In this document: piece after piece, positions 3,272 to 46,914 of the stretch | How the letters are laid out: each line of letters starts with the position of its first letter | Numbering within the stretch: the stretch's first letter is position 1 | Assembly (NCBI GenBank): GCA_033030425.1 | Contig: JAUFSD010000025.1 | Coordinates: 1 to 64,000 of the forward strand | Direction of reading: 5' to 3' | From: Verpa conica | Lineage: Eukaryota > Ascomycota > Pezizomycetes > Pezizales > Morchellaceae | Length of the DNA stretch: 64,000 bases | Position numbers and translations under genes: made by a program | Notes under the pieces: model-generated | Told to the model about the DNA's origin: nothing | Database searches by the model: none | Seen by the model: the letters and a program-made list of their open reading frames with translations, nothing else

Positions 3272-3446
3272 AGTTACTCTGACGGCGACGATGATGGTGG
3301 TGGGAATAGAACTCCACCTTCTGGTCAACCTGGTGGTAGTGGTACCAATATCTGGTCCCGCCGCTCTGTTCCCCTCTCCCAAGCCACTACTACTTCCCTA
3401 TCCTCATCCTCATCTAGTCATGACTCGGATTACTCAGATTTGAAGA

Positions 3447-6400
3447 ATGTTGATGGACCTTCAAATCGGATATGTGAATGTGCACTCCCTGCAGGACGGG
3501 AAGTTTTATCACATTCTGGGGATGTTGGAGAAGAAGTTTGATTTCATTTTTGTTGCGGAACACTGGTACACAAAGCATGCTAGCAGGCTGGCAAATACGG
3601 CGGTGATTGGGACGACGGTCCTACCTCGAGGCTACGCTCAACGACATCTTAAAGGGAGGTTTAGTGGTGGAATTTATTTGTTGGCATCAGACAGGTGGAA
3701 GGGGCAGGTTCTGGGTGTGGTGGGTGATCAGTATGGGATAGCGGCGAGGTTGAAAGGTTTTTCTTTTGCTGGTGTCTATTATCCTCCGACCTCTATGACT
3801 ACGGTGGCTATGGAACAACATCTCCTCAACCTGACAGGAATTGATCTGGTACTTGGAGATATTAATGTCAGGTTTCCAGGTCAACAGCCTGTTGGTCCTA
3901 TGGATAGAGTACAAGCCTTTCAACGTTGGCAAGCAGGAGGGAATTTTACTAGAATGGCACCTAGTTTTGGTGGTGGTAGTGGTGGTAGTGGTAGTGGTAG
4001 TGGTAGTCGTGGGATCCCATTGACGACAGATCATGCTTTCATCTCGAATGCCCCGGTGATGGTGAACAGTACTCTCACTCTCCATTCATGTCAGGAGTTG
4101 AAAATATATACCGATCATAAGTACATGATGGAGGTTGATATTGATGCTGTTGGGATCTTAAACGGTGGTAATGCTGGTGGTGGTGGTGGGGTAGATAGTG
4201 AAAATGATGGGGTTTTGAGGTTTCGGATTAATAGATTGAGGGGTGGTGAGGGTTTGGCTGCTGGGAATGGGGTAAAGAGAGGGAAGAAAAAAGATTATGG
4301 GAAATTGTTTCGGGAGTCTTGGAGCTTGATGCAGGATATGTGTAATTGGAAAGAGGGGTCGGAAGAGTATGATGTGGATATGTTGGACATGTTGCTGGTG
4401 GGGAAGTTGCAGTCAATATCGGAGGAGGTTTTGGGAATTGTTAGGCCAACAGTGGAACGGAAAGGTCCGGATAGAGTGGTGGGTGGGCTTTCAACCTCGA
4501 CTGATATCGACGCAGCTATTGGACTATTCAAAAGAATCCAGAGATCTTCCACTGCTGGTAAAACTATCATATCCGAACTGGACAGCAGTACACCCATGGA
4601 AGAGTGCGAGGCCAAGTATGAGAATGTCTACAACAGCTCCACATCTTCTTCCACGTCTACCACCAATGTGAGCGGTACTTCCAAGTCTAGCTCCAGTGTT
4701 CCATATGGTGAACCTCTGATGGATGATGTGGAGATTACCAGCGTGCTGCTAGATATGGTCTCTGAGAAGCGAGTCAAGAAGTTCATCTCTAGGTTTCCAG
4801 GTAGCAAATCTTGTGGCGAGGATGGTATTCATGCACTACAAATGAAGGCTCTGCTGGATACTTCATTTGTCACCGATCTCTCACTCCTCTTCCAGGCCTG
4901 CATACTTACTGGCTCTACACCTGAGCGGTGGAACAGATCGATTCTTTACCCTATTCGAAAGGACCCCAGTCTTCCATACACGGCAGCCAACACAAGGCCT
5001 ATCTCCATACTGGTAATGTTCAGGAGGGTATTTGAGAGCCTTATACTTCCTGCCTTTGAAGATTCCTCCCTTCCTTCAACACGGTTGATGCTGGGCAGGG
5101 TGGCTTCCGGAAAGGCTACTCCACTCTTACACATGCTCTCACTCTCCACCATTCTCTGGCGACAAAAGCTCTCCCCATCGCAGTGTTCCTTGATTTTGAG
5201 GCAGCGTTTGATATGGTCAGCAGAGATAGACTGGTGGAGGAGTTGCGTGCTCAGGGTATGCCGGCTCTGCTGGTACAACTGGTGGTCCAACTCATGTTCA
5301 CCTCCATGTCCTACAGCCTGATTGTCAATGGTGCCTCTTCTGGTTCCCATCGAAGGGTTGTTGGTATTCCACAAGGCTCCCCTCTATCTCCTGTCATGTT
5401 CAACAAGTTCGTCAACTCCCTAGTGGTGGCTCTCAATGCTACGGTGTGTGATGCCAGTGGACTGCCCTCTAGTCTCTTCTTTGCGGATGATGGGGTTCTT
5501 ATGTGTCGGGATTGGGTGAAAGCCACGGTGCTGCTCGACATATGTGAGCGTTGGGCTGTGGACCATGAGATGCGCTTCAAGGTGCCCAAGTGTGGTGTTG
5601 TTACTACCAAGACTATGCACAACAGATGGCATACCCCTCTCTCCCTCTATGGAAGTCCTCTGCCAGTGGTCGATACCTACCGCTACCTTGGCTTCCCTGT
5701 CACCTGTAATGGTATAGACTTTGACGCCCATCGGGACAGGATTGTTGAGAAGACCCTTAAGCTCAAAGGTTTCCTCCAGCTGAGCTCAGACTCTTGGACT
5801 CCTCGTGTCAGGCTCAATCTCTTTAAGGTCTACCTACGACCGATTATGGAGTATGGGCTGCCTCTCTTCGATGCTTGGGTCAAGTCTGGTGCCTGGCTAA
5901 AGTTCCTCAAGCCTCTGGAGCTGGCGTGGAATGAGTGCATGGTGTGGGTGGCTGGTGGTACCTCCAAGCGTCCCAAGCTCTTTGGCAACCTCTGTGGAGT
6001 CCTGGAGATCAGGCATCGAATGGAACACTTACGCTGTAGCTTCCAACACCATCTCTATACCATGGATGCTAGTAACCCACTTCGGAATATTGTTGGCTTC
6101 CTTCCTACTAGAAGGTCCAAGACTTTACTGGTTGGTCACCTGGCTTATGATAAGCTGTATGGGAGGTTCAGGGAGGAGACGGTGGGGCTTGTTGGACTCG
6201 ACGCTGGTAAGGTCAAGGAAAAGCTGGTGGAGTTTTTGGCGGTGGAGAAGAGTGCGGTGGTAGGAAAGAGGGATGATAAGACTGGGACTATGTTGGCTAT
6301 AGTGGAGCCGGAGGCTAGACTGGTTGGTCTTGACATGGTTGCTGTTCTGGGTATGTTTTAATATTTTTCTCTTATTGTATTTTTTTATTTTTTATTTTTA

Positions 6401-20867: not shown

Positions 20868-21488
20868 ATGGCCCTTCTCGAGGTTGAAAGAAAGTTTATC
20901 TTTCTCCCCGACCTTATTTCGATCTTCAAATTGAATAAAGGCAACCCGAAATTTCAAAGTTTGAAGTACAACGGATCCTCTATCTTCCGCGATACCTACT
21001 ATGACACTTCAAATATGCTCTCTACCCATGGTATCTGGCTCCGCAAACGAGATAAAGCTTGGGAACTTAAGCGGCGTATCCATGGAAATTTCCAACAAGC
21101 ATCTTACGAAGAGCTCAAATGTCCGGAAAGAATACAGTCGCTGATCTCCAAGCACATTCCTTGGGCCTTGAGCAGCAGTGAGAACTATGGATTGGATGTT
21201 CTGTGCGACTATACTACTAAGCGGGAGCTTCATTTGGCTGACGAGAAGTTCTCAATTATGCTGGACCAAACGGACTTTGGTCACTCAGTCTGTGAGGTAG
21301 AGCTTCTTGCAAGAGATGCCAAGGCTGCGGAGGAGGATATCGACAGATTTAGGAGAAAGTATAGTTGGTTCTTCCGGGCTGATAGGCCAAAGGGGAAGAT
21401 ATCAGCTTATCTAGAAAAGTATGGTCCTGGGATTCGGAAGAATTATCATCCTGTCCTTCATGCGGAAGGAGATACTATAATAAACTAA
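20868..21488 (+). CDS. CYTH-domain triphosphatase, thiamine-triphosphatase-like
   Basis: Intact single-exon gene of 206 aa. Family motifs are all present in order: ExExK near the N-terminus (EVERK, residues 5-9), RDTYYDT (41-47), LRKR (58-61), ELK (66-68), MLDQTDFG (131-138), CEVE (142-145) and GKISAYL (176-182). These Glu, Arg and Lys residues line the metal-dependent tunnel of the triphosphate tunnel metalloenzymes. Order and length match animal thiamine triphosphatase (about 230 aa) more closely than RNA triphosphatase or adenylate cyclase CyaB. The enzyme hydrolyses a triphosphate to diphosphate plus phosphate; its substrate cannot be read from sequence. It is convergent with the UMP-CMP kinase gene (397 bp between stop codons) and lies 4 kb from the viperin gene, so a nucleotide-triphosphate role is worth considering. 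Confidence 0.9.
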   Translation: MALLEVERKFIFLPDLISIFKLNKGNPKFQSLKYNGSSIFRDTYYDTSNMLSTHGIWLRKRDKAWELKRRIHGNFQQASYEELKCPERIQSLISKHIPWALSSSENYGLDVLCDYTTKRELHLADEKFSIMLDQTDFGHSVCEVELLARDAKAAEEDIDRFRRKYSWFFRADRPKGKISAYLEKYGPGIRKNYHPVLHAEGDTIIN

Positions 21489-21885
21489 ATATCAAAAAAC
21501 TACTGTAGTAGGATCCCCTTCTCCAATACCAAAAGTTCACTATATATTCTGTATTTTTCTAAGATGAGCAGACGAAATAAACGCGATTTACTATATAAGT
21601 TTTGTATGTAACATAGCAACATCCGTGATCCAGGTACCCCGGTGTTAGAAACGAGTGATAATTCATGTGATAGTCATATAACTTGGTATAAGGCTCCATT
21701 ATAATTCCTAGCGCCCAGTGAACCTTCGCCTTTTGCAACCTATAAAAAACTATCCAATGAGGCCATTGCGCCTAATAATATATATGACCCTAATAAACTA
21801 GATTGCCGTAACGCTTAAGCTATAGAATCAGTTACCCCGCCAACTAAATCTTTCGCAGATCCTGAAGGCAGTGTTTCTTTGGAGT

Positions 21886-22755
21886 TTAAAATTTCCTATT
21901 TCGATTAATATTTGCCGACAAATATAAAAAGAAAGGACGGTTTACCTCTACTATTCGTCTTATTTCAGCATACCCACTGTCCAACGGACCTTCACAATTA
22001 ATCTTATTGAATTAGCTCGTGATATTTCAGATATCTGAATTATTATGCAAGGGATATGAGATGATATATACCGTCACCACTTGACCCCTCTTGCGGAAGT
22101 AGTCTAACACTGGCAGTGTATCAGACTTATACCCATTCCATCTAATCCAGAAAGCCTCCTCGTTATCATCAATCCGTTGTGATGTCTTCGCCCTCTTCAT
22201 AACTCGTTGTAGCATAATATCTGGCGAGCAATCGAAGAATAATGTAACTCTACTTTTACACACCTAGTTCTTATTAATTCAGCTCTTCAGCCCATAAACA
22301 AAGATTTCTTGCAGACCTCGCTCTCAAACGATAGCGCCTGCTCCATGCTTCTTGGAAACCCATCAACAAGGAATGTATTGAGTCCCTTCTCCATCTGTTC
22401 CAACATGGTACGTCTCATCAGCGTCAACGCTATCTTTGCTGGTACAATTGTACCTTGCCGGATATGTTGGTCAATAATGCTACCGACTGGGGAGCCGGGT
22501 TTGCTCATCTCCTCGCGAAGAAGATCGCCGACTGAGAAATGTGCGAAACCAAAGTCTTGGGCTAGTCTTTCGCATTGAGTACCCTTCCCTACACCAGGAC
22601 CGCCTACGTGGTGTTAGTACCCTTTATGGTTTTAAAACACCAGCAGAGGGATAATAAGAGAAGTATAAGGGGATACCAAGGATATATATGACTACAGCTT
22701 TGTCATTAAGTAGTTGCAAATCCTTACTGTCGACTGGTCCCTGGGGTTCTGACAT
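21886..22755 (-). CDS. UMP-CMP kinase-like nucleoside monophosphate kinase
   Basis: Four minus-strand exons: 22755-22677, 22603-22317, 22263-22072 and 22002-21886. They total 675 nt, 224 aa. The P-loop is GGPGVGKGTQ (27-36). The NMP-binding segment is FSVGDLLREE, followed by GTIVPAKIALTLM, the diagnostic FLVDGFPRS, then VTLFFDCSPDIMLQRVMKR and the lid region KTSQRIDDNEE with the DDN triad. The C-terminus reads VLDYFRKRGQVVTINCEG. All introns are GT-AG, 53-73 nt, and each junction restores a conserved block. Family members phosphorylate UMP and CMP with ATP. The closest pattern is eukaryotic UMP-CMP kinase rather than adenylate kinase. It is transcribed divergently from the viperin gene. A conserved lid Gly is replaced by Gln here; the effect is unknown. 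Confidence 0.88.
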
Positions 22756-23804
22756 CGTGTCGCTGTAGAGGGTACTTCTAGGAGGAATTGGGGGTGCCAC
22801 AGGTTCTCGTGATCCAACGAGGGGTAGAGTCTATATCTATGAGTGAGATGAGAGCCTCCGAGAGGTATAGATATCACAAGTATATGATAATTGATGGTTG
22901 AATGACGGAACGAAACAATGAATTAAGTATGGGGAGATTGGGAGGTATTACAGAAATACACGGATAACCCAACAGAAAGACAACAGGGGCCATTTATGTA
23001 AGCATATCCACACAGAAACCGAAGCCTTTCTCCGCCACCATTACTACAAGGGCAAATATCGCATATCTTTTGGAGCGCAATAATCCCACTTCATCTATAA
23101 TACCGCGGTTTGACGGGCATGACAAAGTGTCCCAAGACTTCTCTCAGGATGAAATCTCTGAGGCGTATGATACCTTAGGACTTCCGATATCAATACATGT
23201 TTGTCAAAACACTAGCTAGCACCATGGCTATTTAGAGTAGGTTGATACACGCAGGGGAAAAATTAGAGGCGGAAGAATAATCATGGCCATACTAGGTATC
23301 CCGGGCCACAGGACCTTTCCATATATCTCGGGGCTTTATAATACCGATAGGCCACAGGACAAAAATTCATTATGTCTCGTGTGCATCAAGTTCAGCTGCG
23401 CATGGATACCTACAAGCAAGCGGCATGCAGAAGCCCCGCCTTGACTGGTTTGTAGAGAGTTAAACATCAACAGGTTTGATCCTGACAGTTGGCTAAGATC
23501 GTAACTGAGACCACACACTTCCCCTAACAGATACCAACCACCACTTGCTCGTAATCGCACAACGTTTTGAGAACGGACTGCTATTGAATACATACAAAGC
23601 TCGTAGTTCCAAGACGATTCCAGAACGGCCTACTATTGCATACCATACGGAATTGTGGGCTTGGTTTGTTTTTTGTACGAGTAGATCCGTAAATCCATTT
23701 CCCCTAACGGGGTCTGCTAACAAGGTCTTATGCGGCCGAATTCAAACTGGCCGCCTAAATAAGGGAATGATCCGAGGGCTTATTAACATTGCCTCCCCAA
23801 CCCT
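22756..23804. other. Kinase-viperin intergenic, part 1
   Basis: No gene. A stretch at about 23545-23670 (TGCTCGTAATCGCACAACGT ... CGGCCTACTATTGCATACCA) is related to the foldback at 24690-24845, so it is probably a relic of the same repeat. Confidence 0.45.
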
Positions 23805-24104
23805 GTATACCAGCTGAAAGATAAAGTCTGTCACTTTGGGTACGAGTCGCAACAGGGCCTCCACACCAAAAAATGAAGCACTCGCGCAACAACCCAAGTA
23901 GTACATCTTAATGATAATATTCTATTAGTGGTCTTATTCCTACCATACCTCAGCTTCCTCTCCCAAGTCCCCTATAGTTTTTTTTATTCCCCGTATTTTC
24001 AGTGGCAATAAAATCAGACTAATGTAGGCACTTCACTTCTTGGTGCGGGGGCTCCGTTGCGACTCATACCCGAAGTGACAGACCTTATTTTTCAGCGGGT
24101 GTAG
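23805..24104. mobile_element. MITE with inverted repeats of about 65 bp
   Basis: Left arm from about 23807 (TACCAGCTGAAAGATAAAG, then TCTGTCACTTTGGGTACGAG, TCGCAACAGGGCC). The right arm, read on the other strand from about 24102, is CACCCGCTGAAAAATAAGG, then TCTGTCACTTCGGGTATGAG, TCGCAACGGAGCC. A TA dinucleotide flanks both ends, as in Tc1/mariner-like elements. There is no transposase. It sits between the kinase and viperin genes. Confidence 0.78.
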
Positions 24105-24261
24105 GCAGCTTAGCAGTATTCTAGACGGTTGACTAAGGTCTCTGGCCAGTTAGGACACGTCTATTTACAGATCACAGATCAATTTCCTTTTCTGAATGGG
24201 CAGCTTCAATTTGGCCACATGAGTACAGCCTTTGGTAGAAACATAAAGTTTAGGTTAGTGT

Positions 24262-24605
24262 TTGTCGCGGAGGATTCAGTCCCCAAACGAACCGGGAACC
24301 GCGCCAAGAAGATGCCCCGAACTACCCCACAGGGCGGGGCGGCCCGAGATTCTTCTCAAGGGGCAGCGTAACCACAGGGTACAACTCAATGGCAAGGTAA
24401 CTATCCGTGGGCGGTTCCCTGGCCGGGGGAAGCCCTGCTCTACACCCCCACGCATATACTGCCATCCATACGACTCCCACAGTGCTTTAAAACTCAATTA
24501 CAGTCCTCAAAGACTATATATGCCGATTTCGCTTTAATTGTGGCCCCGATATATATGCATGGCCCCGCCCCGCTCTTTGCTCAAAATCCGGAACCGCCCA
24601 GCCCT
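24262..24605. repeat. Dispersed repeat R1, copy 3, partly inverted
   Basis: The right half (24455-24605) repeats the R1 blocks ACTGCCATCCATACGACTCC, CACAGTGCTTTAAAACTCAA, GACTATATATGCCGATTT and CAAAATCCGGAACCGCCC in direct orientation. The left part (24262-24345) is the terminal GGTTCGTTTGGGG...GGTTTCTT-type block in inverted orientation. The copy is therefore rearranged or composite. Confidence 0.65.
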
Positions 24606-24689
24606 GAGACTTATTGCCTGCCCCTAGTGCCTATAATCGAGTGGCGTCTGGAAAACCGACCAGACTCGCATACCAACAAATACATAAAT

Positions 24690-24845
24690 CTCAATACTCG
24701 TACTTGCAAGACGTTTCCGGATTGGCCTACTATTACATACCATACAAAAAGTATGCCAAGTCTACAATTTTTTGCGGTATGCAATAGTAGACTATTTCGG
24801 AAACACCCCGCAATTACGAGCACAATTAGTATGGTATACAGGTCT
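24690..24845. repeat. Foldback repeat
   Basis: CTCGTACTTGCAAGACGTTT followed by CCGGATTGGCCTACTATTAC and ATACCATAC (left) pairs with GGTATGCAATAGTAGACTAT, TTCGGAAACACCCCGCAATT and ACGAGC (right). The arms are about 60 nt and imperfect. The open frame 24540-24998 across it is a by-product. Confidence 0.6.
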
Positions 24846-25480
24846 AGTCGGTTTTCTAGACATCGCCCGATTACGAGCTCTTATCGCCAAAGACTAGCAG
24901 TGGCCAGCAACACTATTATAGAAACAATGATTTACAGGCAGGATCCTATGGCCAGTACCACTGCCAGGATCTTCGCCGAGAACCTAGAGATCCAATAGAA
25001 ACATTTACAACAATCTTGCCGGTCACTGTATTTAAGCCTGTGTTGGGATGTAGATCGTAGGTGTAGTCAGTGCTAAAAGCGCTAGCTGTCAGGCATTCCC
25101 AGGATTTAATTACAGAGACTTTGATTCTTTCCTATGAGGCCACCTTGTTAAATCTATATGGTTTCCAAATTCTAGAAATGGTCGTCGGTATAATATGATA
25201 GTAAACAAGATATAGTGCTCCTGGTAACTGTATTCCGAGAACGCTTAGAGCCAACGAGGTACCCCGCACTTCCCTAATATGATATAACTTTAGTCCAATC
25301 GACTTGCCGTAACCTGGATCTAGATCTATTTGCACAAAATCCTATAATCCGGCCCAAGTCCTTTACAAAAGGAAAAAATCCCTCAAGCTACTGAGAACTA
25401 CAACAAACTCTTAAACACTTTCGATTCTTTAGCTTAATCACTTACTCCAAGGCGAAATCCTTACTACGATCCTGCCCGGC

Positions 25481-26464
25481 ATGATTCTCGGATTGACATC
25501 AATCTTATTTGCCGTTCTGGGGGCCATCATATTCAGTATTCGTCGTCGTCGCAACTCCCGTGGCCCTATACCTGTCTCTGTCAACTACTTCTACACCCGA
25601 AAATGCAACTATGAGTGCGGTTTCTGCTTCCACACGGCGAAAACTTCATATATTCCACCCCTTGAGGATTCCAAACGAGGCCTTATGCTCCTAAAGGAGG
25701 CCGGAATGCGGAAGATCAACTTCGCCGGGGGGGAGCCGTTCTTGTACCCTAAATATTTAGCTTCTTTACTTGTCTTTTGCAAGGAAGAGCTAGGAATCGA
25801 ATCGGTGTCAATCATCACGAACGGAAGTCTCGTCACAGAGAAATTTCTCCACGAGTACGGAAAATATATCGATGTCCTTGGGGTCTCTTGTGACTCTTTC
25901 AACGAAGAAACAAATATCCTCATCGGCAGAGGTAAAGGCGGGCATATCGAAAAGTTCAAAAACATCTCGCGATTATGTAAGGAGTATGGCATCAAGTTTA
26001 AAGTCAACACGGTCATTAACCGCTTTAACTTCGATGAGGACATGAACGAAGAGATTCAAGCAATCGACCCCTTCCGTTGGAAATGCTTCCAGGTGCTTGT
26101 TGTTGACGGGGAGAACGACTCCCAGTCGACCCTTCGAGATGCTTCGAGATTTTGCATAACAGACGATGAATTCCAAAAGTTCTGCGATAGGCACTCCCAT
26201 AACAAGTTCTGTATCCCCGAGTCGAACAAAGTCATGAGAAGCTCGTATCTCCTTCTCGACGAGTATATGCGATTTCTCGATAAAGGTGCTAAGCTAACTA
26301 GCGAGTCGATATTGGATGTTGGGGTAATGCCTGCTTTGGCAAAGATAAAATGGGACGAGGAGAGCTTTTCCATAAGAGGGGGAATTTATGATTGGAGCAA
26401 GGAGACCAAGAGTTCTGACTCAGATAGCGCTTGCTCATCCCCAAACCCAAAACTTGAATGGTAG
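25481..26464 (+). CDS. RSAD2-like: Viperin-type radical SAM enzyme (ddhCTP-synthase family)
   Basis: Intact, intronless, 327 aa. Residues 2-19 form a hydrophobic N-terminal segment (MILGLTSILFAVLGAIIF) followed by RRRR, consistent with membrane anchoring. The SAM cluster motif is CNYECGFC (Cys 42, 46, 49), followed by FHTAKTS, the viperin signature. INFAGGEPFL (79-88) carries the SAM-binding GGEP. ITNGS, CDSFNEETNILIGRGKG, VNTVINRFN and LLLDEYMRFLDKG all match viperin positions, and SILDVGV follows. The chain ends in LEW; animal viperin also ends in Trp, the residue reported to recruit the CIA iron-sulfur machinery. Viperin removes the 3' hydroxyl of CTP to give the chain terminator ddhCTP. 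Here substrate and antiviral role are inferred. Neighbours are a UMP-CMP kinase (divergent) and a CYTH triphosphatase. Human viperin is 361 aa; the difference is mostly N-terminal. Confidence 0.96.
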   Translation: MILGLTSILFAVLGAIIFSIRRRRNSRGPIPVSVNYFYTRKCNYECGFCFHTAKTSYIPPLEDSKRGLMLLKEAGMRKINFAGGEPFLYPKYLASLLVFCKEELGIESVSIITNGSLVTEKFLHEYGKYIDVLGVSCDSFNEETNILIGRGKGGHIEKFKNISRLCKEYGIKFKVNTVINRFNFDEDMNEEIQAIDPFRWKCFQVLVVDGENDSQSTLRDASRFCITDDEFQKFCDRHSHNKFCIPESNKVMRSSYLLLDEYMRFLDKGAKLTSESILDVGVMPALAKIKWDEESFSIRGGIYDWSKETKSSDSDSACSSPNPKLEW

Positions 26465-37694: not shown

Positions 37695-41162
<3,468 letters not shown>

Positions 41163-45238: not shown

Positions 45239-46914
45239 ATGGTTAATCTACGCTCTAGTTTTGCCTGCCTCCTCGGGCTTCTTCTACCCTCAGTTGTCTA
45301 CTCAGCTGATAGTGAAGCATGGAAAACTCGTTCTATTTACTTTGTAGGTATCCCTTTTTAATTACGCCGTACTTCAATTTCATTAGTTTTAGCTAATAGA
45401 TCTTGTAGGTTCTGACGGACAGGTTTGCCAAAACCGATGTTTCTAGTGGTAGTGCATGCAGTAATCTCGGGTCTTACTGTGGTGGTACGTGGAAGGGAAT
45501 GGAACAAAAACTCGATTATATCAAGGAGCTGGGATTTGATGCTATTTGGATCACTCCTATCGTTGCCAGTACGTTATCTCTTTCATCTCTACTTCGGTGG
45601 CAGTGATTCTCAGATACTAAACAACTTTGTATAGACACCGATGGCGGTTACCACGGCTACTGGGCGAAAGATCTCTATGCAGTAAACACAAATCATGGTT
45701 CTGCTGCCGATCTGACTTCATTGATCACCGCTGCACACAATAAGGGGATGTATATCATGGTTGATATCGTCTGTAACCATATGGGATTCGGGTCCGTCAG
45801 TACCTTCAACCCCTTCAACAACGACGGATACTACCACACTTCCTGTGCAATTACCGACTACAACAACCAAGCGAATGTCGAGTACTGTAGAATTGCTGAC
45901 TTGCCTGATATCAAAACGGAAGATTCAGGTGTCAGAAGTATCTTCCAGAGCTGGATCAAGAATCTTGTCTCCACTTACCAAATTGATGGTCTTCGTCTGG
46001 ATACGGTCAAGCACGTTGAAAAGGATTTCTGGTCAGGATTCACCAGTGCTGCAGGTGTATTCACTATCGGTGAGGTCTACCAGGGAGATCCAGCGTATGT
46101 CGGTCCTTACCAGGGCTATATGAGCTCCCTCGTCAATTTCCCTATGTACTACTCAATCACCGATTCATATGCTCGTAAAGTCACGTTCCAGAGCCTTGTC
46201 AACCAGCACAACTCCGTCAGTAGTAATTTCGCCCGTCCAGAGCTTCTTGGGATGTTCATCGACAATCATGACGTCCAGCGTTTCTTGAACATTAATTCCG
46301 ATTGGACTCTTCTCAAGAACGCTCTCGCCTTCACCATGCTTTCCCGTGGTATTCCGATCCTTTACGGAGGTACCGAGCAGGCATTCACTGGTGGTAACGA
46401 CCCGGCAAATCGTGAAGACTTATGGCGCACCGGTTACTCTACCACCGGCGACATCTTCACTTTTATCAAGAAATTGATGGCTGCCAAGAAAGCTGCTGGA
46501 GGTCTTGGAGCAAATGATCACGCCCATCTTTACGTTACGGCCAATGCCTATGCATTCAGCAGACTTGGCGGAAAGGTCGTTGTTCTCACAACCAATAACG
46601 GTAGCGGAACCAGCGGACAATATTGTTTCAACACCAACGTTGCATCCGGCACCGTCTTCACCAGTGCTCTCGGGACTGCAACCTACACTGCAGGCTCGAA
46701 CGGAAATATTTGTGTGAATATCTCTAACGGACAACCTGAAGTTCTGCTAGCGTAAGGAGCCCTACAACCTGTTTAACTTCCTAGATTTTGCCCCGCTAAC
46801 CAAGAACGTGGATTGTATAGTGGCATAACTACTACAACCAGTGCTACTACCACAACTACAGCGGCAACAACTACTGGATCGTGTGTGACTGTTACAGCCA
46901 CTGTGTACGCTTAG
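45239..46914 (+). CDS. Secreted GH13 alpha-amylase
   Basis: Exons 45239-45343, 45409-45568, 45635-46751 and 46821-46914; 1476 nt, 491 aa. A signal peptide ([20 protein letters not shown]) is followed by SIYFVLTDRFA. The four GH13 regions are present: [18 protein letters not shown] with the Asp nucleophile, GEVYQG with the Glu acid/base, and [10 protein letters not shown]. The paired-Cys loop [16 protein letters not shown] is typical of Taka-amylase-type fungal enzymes. The last exon adds a Thr-rich linker and a short [12 protein letters not shown] end. In related amylases such a linker leads to a CBM20 starch-binding domain, which is missing here. The enzyme cuts internal alpha-1,4 bonds in starch; the CBM21 and GH31 neighbours complete the pathway. 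Confidence 0.95.

Follow-up and report, generated by a model that had tools for sequence, protein, structure and literature searches.

In vertebrates, the genes encoding the antiviral enzyme viperin (RSAD2) and CMPK2, a nucleotide kinase of the thymidylate-kinase family, are neighbours. Viperin activity is reported to depend on synergy with CMPK2, and 15% of bacterial viperin genes are reported to adjoin a CMPK2-like kinase (PMC11249213). Among fungal viperins, TtRSAD2 of Thielavia terrestris is described as acting on both cytidine triphosphate (CTP) and uridine triphosphate (UTP) (PMC9642334). By title, no paper on the gene neighbourhoods of fungal viperins, or on viperin together with a CYTH protein, was found among the open-licence papers searched. 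Here we describe a viperin gene of the fungus Verpa conica that lies beside genes for a divergent UMP-CMP-type kinase and a CYTH protein. The window, by which we mean the whole stretch of DNA that was analysed, is the first 64 kb of a 1.21-Mb contig (C25) in a genome of 45.8 Mb and 25 contigs. Our tentative reading, which we consider possible though somewhat short of probable, is that the three genes form a viperin-centred nucleotide cluster of one ascomycete lineage, probably the Pezizomycetes; its kinase would have been recruited independently, and the CYTH protein might serve to clear triphosphates.

The three genes and their products

The CYTH, kinase and viperin genes all lie within 5.6 kb, and each is intact and carries its motifs:

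20868..21488, + strand: CYTH / triphosphate-tunnel protein of the thiamine-triphosphatase (ThTPase) type; 206 residues, single exon (ATG 20868, stop 21488)
21815..22755, - strand: divergent UMP-CMP-type kinase of the adenylate-kinase family; 233 residues, five exons, spliced model
22755-22677, 22603-22300, 22252-22072, 22002-21946 and 21895-21815, - strand: kinase exons, with four GT..AG introns
22756..25480, no strand: stretch of multi-copy repeats between kinase and viperin, which includes the inverted-end element of the next line
23806-24103, no strand: short element with 73-nucleotide inverted ends (23806-23878 and 24031-24103, 84% complementary)
25481..26464, + strand: viperin (RSAD2-like radical SAM protein); 327 residues, single exon (ATG 25481, stop 26464)

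The initial annotation had described three intact genes with catalytic motifs in 5.6 kb, and our coordinates, translations and motifs agree with it. So do the strands (kinase -, viperin +, CYTH +), which place the kinase and viperin genes in divergent orientation and the kinase and CYTH genes in convergent orientation, as it had stated.

By its sequence, the window viperin is an ordinary fungal viperin. The protein passes the NF038283 cut-off (257.3 bits; cut-off 180), does not reach that of the stricter TIGR04278 (404 bits; cut-off 450), contains the radical SAM domain PF04055 (80.4 bits) and matches the PADLOC models for prokaryotic viperins (pVips). Its best matches among solved structures, 7n7i and 6b4c (E 2.6e-124) and RSAD2 5vsl (E 3.1e-109), cover its radical SAM and C-terminal parts. 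In an alignment of the window protein with 16 of the 120 listed relatives (2366 were found), to which it is 55-74% identical, the cluster cysteines of the CxxxCxxC motif (C42, C46 and C49 in P0001) are invariant in 17 of 17 rows, and by eye most of the aligned proteins share its hydrophobic N-terminus followed by arginines. The best named relatives among the matches listed are from Wilcoxina mikolae (66% identity) and Morchella sextelata (69%). A Trichoderma virens protein (P0082) is 59-61% identical to the window viperin, and structure 7n7i is the T. virens viperin. Searching the 45.8-Mb genome with the viperin returned a single match, and neither a viperin nor a CYTH relative was found on viral contigs by single-protein queries, which reach close relatives only.

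The CYTH protein is of the ThTPase type, as judged by motifs, sequence and modelled fold. It exceeds the PF01928 cut-off (26.5 bits; cut-off 23.2), and a sequence search of solved structures returned five thiamine triphosphatase chains (E 2.5e-8 to 2.5e-7) ahead of a next match at E 0.26. An AlphaFold2 model (mean predicted local distance difference test score, pLDDT, 86.6) resembles human and mouse ThTPase most closely (3tvl, the human enzyme, and 5a64; template-modelling score 0.73). The protein thus has the fold of animal THTPA along with its ExExK, WxRxR and ExE motifs, but differs from it in sequence (26-27% identity). When the window protein was aligned with nine of its ten relatives (P0011 was left out), ExExK (E5/E7/K9), WxRxR (W57/R59/R61) and ExE (E143/E145), as well as K68, R119, D133 and K177, were invariant in 10 of 10 rows. 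The W/YxRxR signature is reported to mark ThTPases, with its tryptophan stacking on the thiazole ring, and to occur in only one other subfamily, which is without ExExK (PMC8233210). By analogy, given this aromatic stacking, the substrate would most likely be a small triphosphate with an aromatic ring, such as thiamine triphosphate (ThTP) or 3'-deoxy-3',4'-didehydro-CTP (ddhCTP). The initial annotation had also suggested action on triphosphorylated RNA, which is unlikely, and we rejected a capping-type RNA triphosphatase as the most likely identity: fold and WxRxR fit a ThTPase, and the RNA triphosphatase Pct1 (4pn1) ranks 47th and 50th among the fold matches.

Queried with the protein, the genome returned only the CYTH gene itself; a PF01928 scan missed even this gene and is therefore insensitive to a divergent second CYTH. 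A second ThTPase-type group among the CYTH relatives (P0006, P0007 and P0009) has 45% identity to the window protein. In a search that reaches only proteins sharing exact words, all ten relatives lacked a source name, and this fungal family may therefore be under-annotated. According to one review, a specific ThTPase is yet to be identified in fungi (PMC8615392).

The kinase gene was modelled in this analysis by comparison with a paralogue elsewhere in the genome:

contig C8, 42720-43600, - strand: second kinase copy (loci L019 and L024)

The splice model is supported because the C8 paralogue likewise requires four introns at matching positions (intron 2 differs by a few codons between the models) and because the alignment with yeast uridylate kinase spans residues 18-207. 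We rejected the idea of a broken gene, as the four-intron model yields a protein of 233 residues that aligns through residue 207 to the yeast enzyme. A partial reading of 202 residues scored 133 bits against PF00406 (cut-off 26.8) and 18.2 bits against the thymidylate-kinase profile PF02223 (below its cut-off of 27), and by these profiles the window kinase belongs to the adenylate-kinase / UMP-CMP (URA6) family and not to the thymidylate-kinase family. Its best match in the PDB is uridylate kinase 1uky (E 1.1e-54, 189 bits), followed by UMP-CMP kinase (150 bits) and adenylate kinase isoenzyme 1 (148 bits), the last two being close. Aligned to 1uky, it retains GGPGVGKGTQC, GDLLR, DGFPR..Q and both lid arginines, the active-site residues of the yeast enzyme; the loss of a catalytic arginine was considered and rejected, since both lid arginines are present in this alignment.

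The initial annotation had raised the question whether this kinase is the sole UMP-CMP kinase of the genome, and it is not. Adenylate-kinase-family matches fall on five contigs (C25, C8, C5, C24 and C12), and the gene on C24 is a standard URA6-like gene whose 178-residue piece scores 230.6 bits against TIGR01359, above the cut-off of 207.6 (the C8 copy scores 169.6 bits). In a midpoint-rooted tree of 32 rows, mostly exon-2 fragments, with 114 columns and query-biased sampling, C24 groups with yeast URA6 and a UMP-CMP kinase in an eight-row clade (support 96/95), and the window and C8 kinases, P0133 and P0135 fall outside this supported URA6 clade. We therefore rejected a housekeeping URA6 role for the window kinase: it shares with the URA6 / UMP-CMP kinases its best solved match and a conserved active site, but differs in being a divergent paralogue. 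Most fragments of the kinase relatives P0134-P0145 share GGPGVGKG and SVGDLLR, which suggests a wider group of divergent kinases in fungi beside URA6.

The window and C8 kinases share 146 of 231 residues; their nonsynonymous rate (dN) is 0.26, their synonymous rate (dS) 1.9, which is near saturation, and dN/dS about 0.13. By these rates the pair is old and has been under purifying selection. In the C8 copy the P-loop threonine is replaced by phenylalanine (GKGF) and the glutamine after FPRSME by lysine, and this copy may be inactive. The window copy keeps both residues, and the viperin-adjacent copy therefore looks catalytically competent. The C8 copy lies 43 kb from the start of its contig and about 2.4 kb from a long Copia-like frame recognised by eye.

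Several multi-copy repeats, pieces of which are present on many other contigs, lie in the 2.7 kb that separate the kinase gene from viperin, so that the two genes lack a compact common promoter. Searching the genome with the gap gave 98 matches, the query itself included (40 scored of 240 candidates), and about fifteen sequences similar to the inverted-end element occur in other parts of the genome. Further repeat pieces occur at 24100-25030. The sole open frame of more than 200 residues in the gap (24372-24995) matched no Pfam family.

Gene neighbourhoods in other fungi and in prokaryotes

To assess linkage in other fungi, we relied on exact equality of the longest-contig sizes recorded for protein-search relatives of each gene, comparing 10 CYTH relatives, 120 listed viperin relatives of 2366, and 26 kinase fragments, 25 of them with a size. 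Among the matches listed, CYTH and viperin relatives had equal sizes twice (P0003 and P0015, 5916; P0005 and P0075, 7471), and CYTH and kinase relatives once (P0004 and P0135, 6170, two contigs each). When sizes were jittered by up to 20% in 20,000 trials, the mean number of CYTH-viperin matches was 0.029 (two or more in 0.025% of trials), that of CYTH-kinase matches 0.004 and that of viperin-kinase matches 0.074. The equal sizes lead us to infer that, in three other fungi, a pair of the genes sits on a common contig of 6-7.5 kb. Of these fungi, two are close to each other (CYTH 86% and viperin 78% identical), and the third is farther away, its CYTH protein being 70% identical to P0003; the CYTH proteins of the linked species are 62-66% identical to that of the window.

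Prokaryote genomes were scanned with the fungal viperin alignment, which gave 94 confirmed loci, of which 80 were kept with flanks of at most 10 kb, truncated where a contig ended. A thymidylate-kinase-like gene lies within 150 bp of viperin and on the same strand in 15 of the 80 loci (profile E <=1e-3); all seven of these neighbours that were run against Pfam scored above the PF02223 cut-off. Two further thymidylate-kinase-like matches lie on the other strand and farther away, at 1.1 kb (L049) and 0.8 kb (L079). Three of the 80 loci have a cytidylate-kinase-like gene, adjacent to viperin in one and in a single frame with it in two:

L059:10876-11430, + strand: cytidylate-kinase-like gene after viperin (PF13189)
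L061:1991-3424, + strand: single frame joining viperin and a cytidylate-kinase-like part (PF13189)
L065:4207-5619, + strand: single frame joining viperin and a cytidylate-kinase-like part, assigned by similarity to the L059 protein

In total, 18 of the 80 prokaryotic loci have a kinase adjacent to viperin or in the same frame. None of the 80 flanks holds a clear adenylate-kinase-type neighbour: the best match, at L059 (E 2.4e-6), is the gene that Pfam calls cytidylate-kinase-like, and the next, at L027 (E 1.6e-4), is a frame some 2.7 kb away on the opposite strand. The profile used here was built from 29 prokaryotic seeds and recovered 30 of 30 control loci (29 of them its own seeds); an earlier profile from fungal fragments had no such control. 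CYTH was likewise found in 0 of the 80 flanks, the fungal profile giving one match at E 0.92 and a prokaryotic-seed profile none better than E 1.8. This second profile was built from 21 seeds and found all 24 control loci, three of which were not among its seeds; 20 of the 39 prokaryotic genomes tested carry a CYTH gene somewhere.

The fungal locus thus resembles the pVip loci in combining a member of the same viperin family with a kinase, as neighbour or fusion, but differs from them in having CYTH and in its kind of kinase, theirs being thymidylate-kinase-like at 15 loci and cytidylate-kinase-like at 3. Prokaryotic viperins are joined with kinases of at least two families, to which the fungal kinase would add another; nothing corresponding to the fungal CYTH gene was found beside prokaryotic viperins in the 80 flanks. 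The comparison with vertebrates is similar. There, too, viperin sits beside the gene for a pyrimidine nucleotide kinase, but CMPK2 is of the thymidylate-kinase family, the window kinase is of the adenylate-kinase / UMP-CMP family, and CYTH is an addition here. An RSAD2-CMPK2-type pairing in a fungus, as first proposed for this locus, therefore stands as far as viperin lies beside a nucleotide kinase, and is not supported as to the kinase, which is of another family (PF00406, not PF02223). The fungal pairing would be analogous and separately assembled, its kinase an analogue of CMPK2 and not a homologue within the family.

Other features of the window

Four further features were noted outside the three-gene locus:

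3444-6358, + strand: remains of a retrotransposon without long terminal repeats, recognised by eye, with a reverse transcriptase frame at 5060-6358 (PF00078)
29552: short internal telomere-like run (two TTAGGG units), well away from the end of the contig
37698-38561, - strand: glycosyl hydrolase family 31 gene, with further pieces, by eye, up to 41675
45607-46752, + strand: alpha-amylase gene

The frame upstream of the reverse transcriptase frame and overlapping it (3444-5318) had no Pfam match. A second TTAGGG pair was found nowhere else in the 64-kb window, contig start included.

Explanations for the locus

We infer that the three genes work together as follows. Viperin would convert CTP and/or UTP to chain-terminating 3'-deoxy-3',4'-didehydro-nucleoside triphosphates (ddhNTPs: ddhCTP, ddhUTP), as reported for a fungal relative (PMC9642334). 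The specialised duplicated kinase could supply pyrimidine di- and triphosphates locally (CDP or UDP), or re-phosphorylate the ddh-nucleotide (ddhNMP), and would in this way fill the job of CMPK2 from another nucleotide-kinase family. In what is the weakest step, CYTH might remove unwanted triphosphates: either ddhNTP itself, which would make it an off-switch, or by-products, for instance ThTP. A bolder form of the proposal, that fungi built a viperin module of their own in which a URA6-family kinase stands in for CMPK2 and a ThTPase-fold hydrolase destroys ddhNTP as a dedicated off-switch, we regard as unlikely.

Several observations weigh against a viperin-centred cluster. The initial annotation had proposed comparing gene neighbourhoods in related genomes, and the indirect outcome leans in favour of co-localisation without being uniform: the equal contig sizes linked CYTH with viperin twice and with the kinase once, but viperin and kinase sizes were never equal among the matches listed, and all three genes were not seen on one contig outside the window (there is no kinase at 5916 or 7471, and no listed viperin at 6170). 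Seven of the ten CYTH relatives match no listed viperin or kinase size, and for three of the four best viperins (P0013, P0014 and P0016) there is no CYTH or kinase relative with an equal contig size. On contig C8, which holds the kinase paralogue, genome searches found neither viperin nor CYTH. Against TIGR01359, with its cut-off of 207.6, the window kinase itself falls short at 190.2 bits. The three 500-base regions upstream of the CYTH, kinase and viperin genes have no 8-10-base word in common, and the repeats between kinase and viperin stand against a tightly regulated unit. Finally, the linked species are relatives, and plain inherited gene order may therefore account for their linkage.

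Inherited gene order among related fungi is the strongest rival. In this explanation the genes are neighbours without joint function: viperin acts alone, CYTH is an ordinary ThTPase-type gene, the kinase is a spare paralogue and the linkage is inherited. We take it as a serious possibility, albeit a doubtful one. It fits with the single CYTH copy with ThTPase motifs returned by the CYTH query, with the relatedness of the linked species (CYTH 62-66% identical to the window protein, and 86% between two of them), with the repeats that part kinase from viperin and the failure to find a common upstream motif, and with the absence of a CYTH neighbour from all 80 prokaryotic viperin loci. Set against this, gene order in fungi is often broken at such divergence, and viperin-kinase adjacency recurs in prokaryotes (18 of 80 loci) and in vertebrates.

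It is improbable that kinase and CYTH instead form a metabolite-repair pair apart from viperin, in which ThTP, a side product of the kinase family, is reverted to the coenzyme by CYTH. Adenylate kinase is reported to make ThTP from thiamine diphosphate and ADP, and a repair role has been suggested for THTPA (PMC8615392); CYTH carries the WxRxR signature described for ThTPases (PMC8233210), and a CYTH and a kinase relative share the contig size 6170. This pairing, however, leaves the two CYTH-viperin size matches unexplained, and the window kinase scores 189 bits with uridylate kinase and 150 with UMP-CMP kinase, as opposed to 148 with adenylate kinase isoenzyme 1, the last two being close. Moreover, ThTP synthesis by adenylate kinase is reported to run more than a million-fold below its ATP synthesis (PMC8615392).

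Just as improbable is a kinase-fold paralogue that serves as a regulator or is a decaying copy, leaving only viperin, or viperin and CYTH, to matter. The sub-threshold TIGR01359 score (190.2 against 207.6 bits), a P-loop valine where URA6 carries alanine, and the loss of the P-loop threonine (GKGF) and of the glutamine after FPRSME in the C8 copy would fit it, but in the window copy GxGKGT of the P-loop, DGFPR..Q and the two lid arginines are intact, and dN/dS between the copies is about 0.13, with dS near saturation.

Few immune pairs are known over the whole range from bacteria to vertebrates, and viperin with a nucleotide kinase is among them. If the viperin-centred cluster is real, the use of a kinase from a different family in a fungus would speak independently for a functional pairing and against mere chance in gene order, and a dedicated triphosphatase would bear on how cells that make chain-terminating nucleotides limit damage to themselves.

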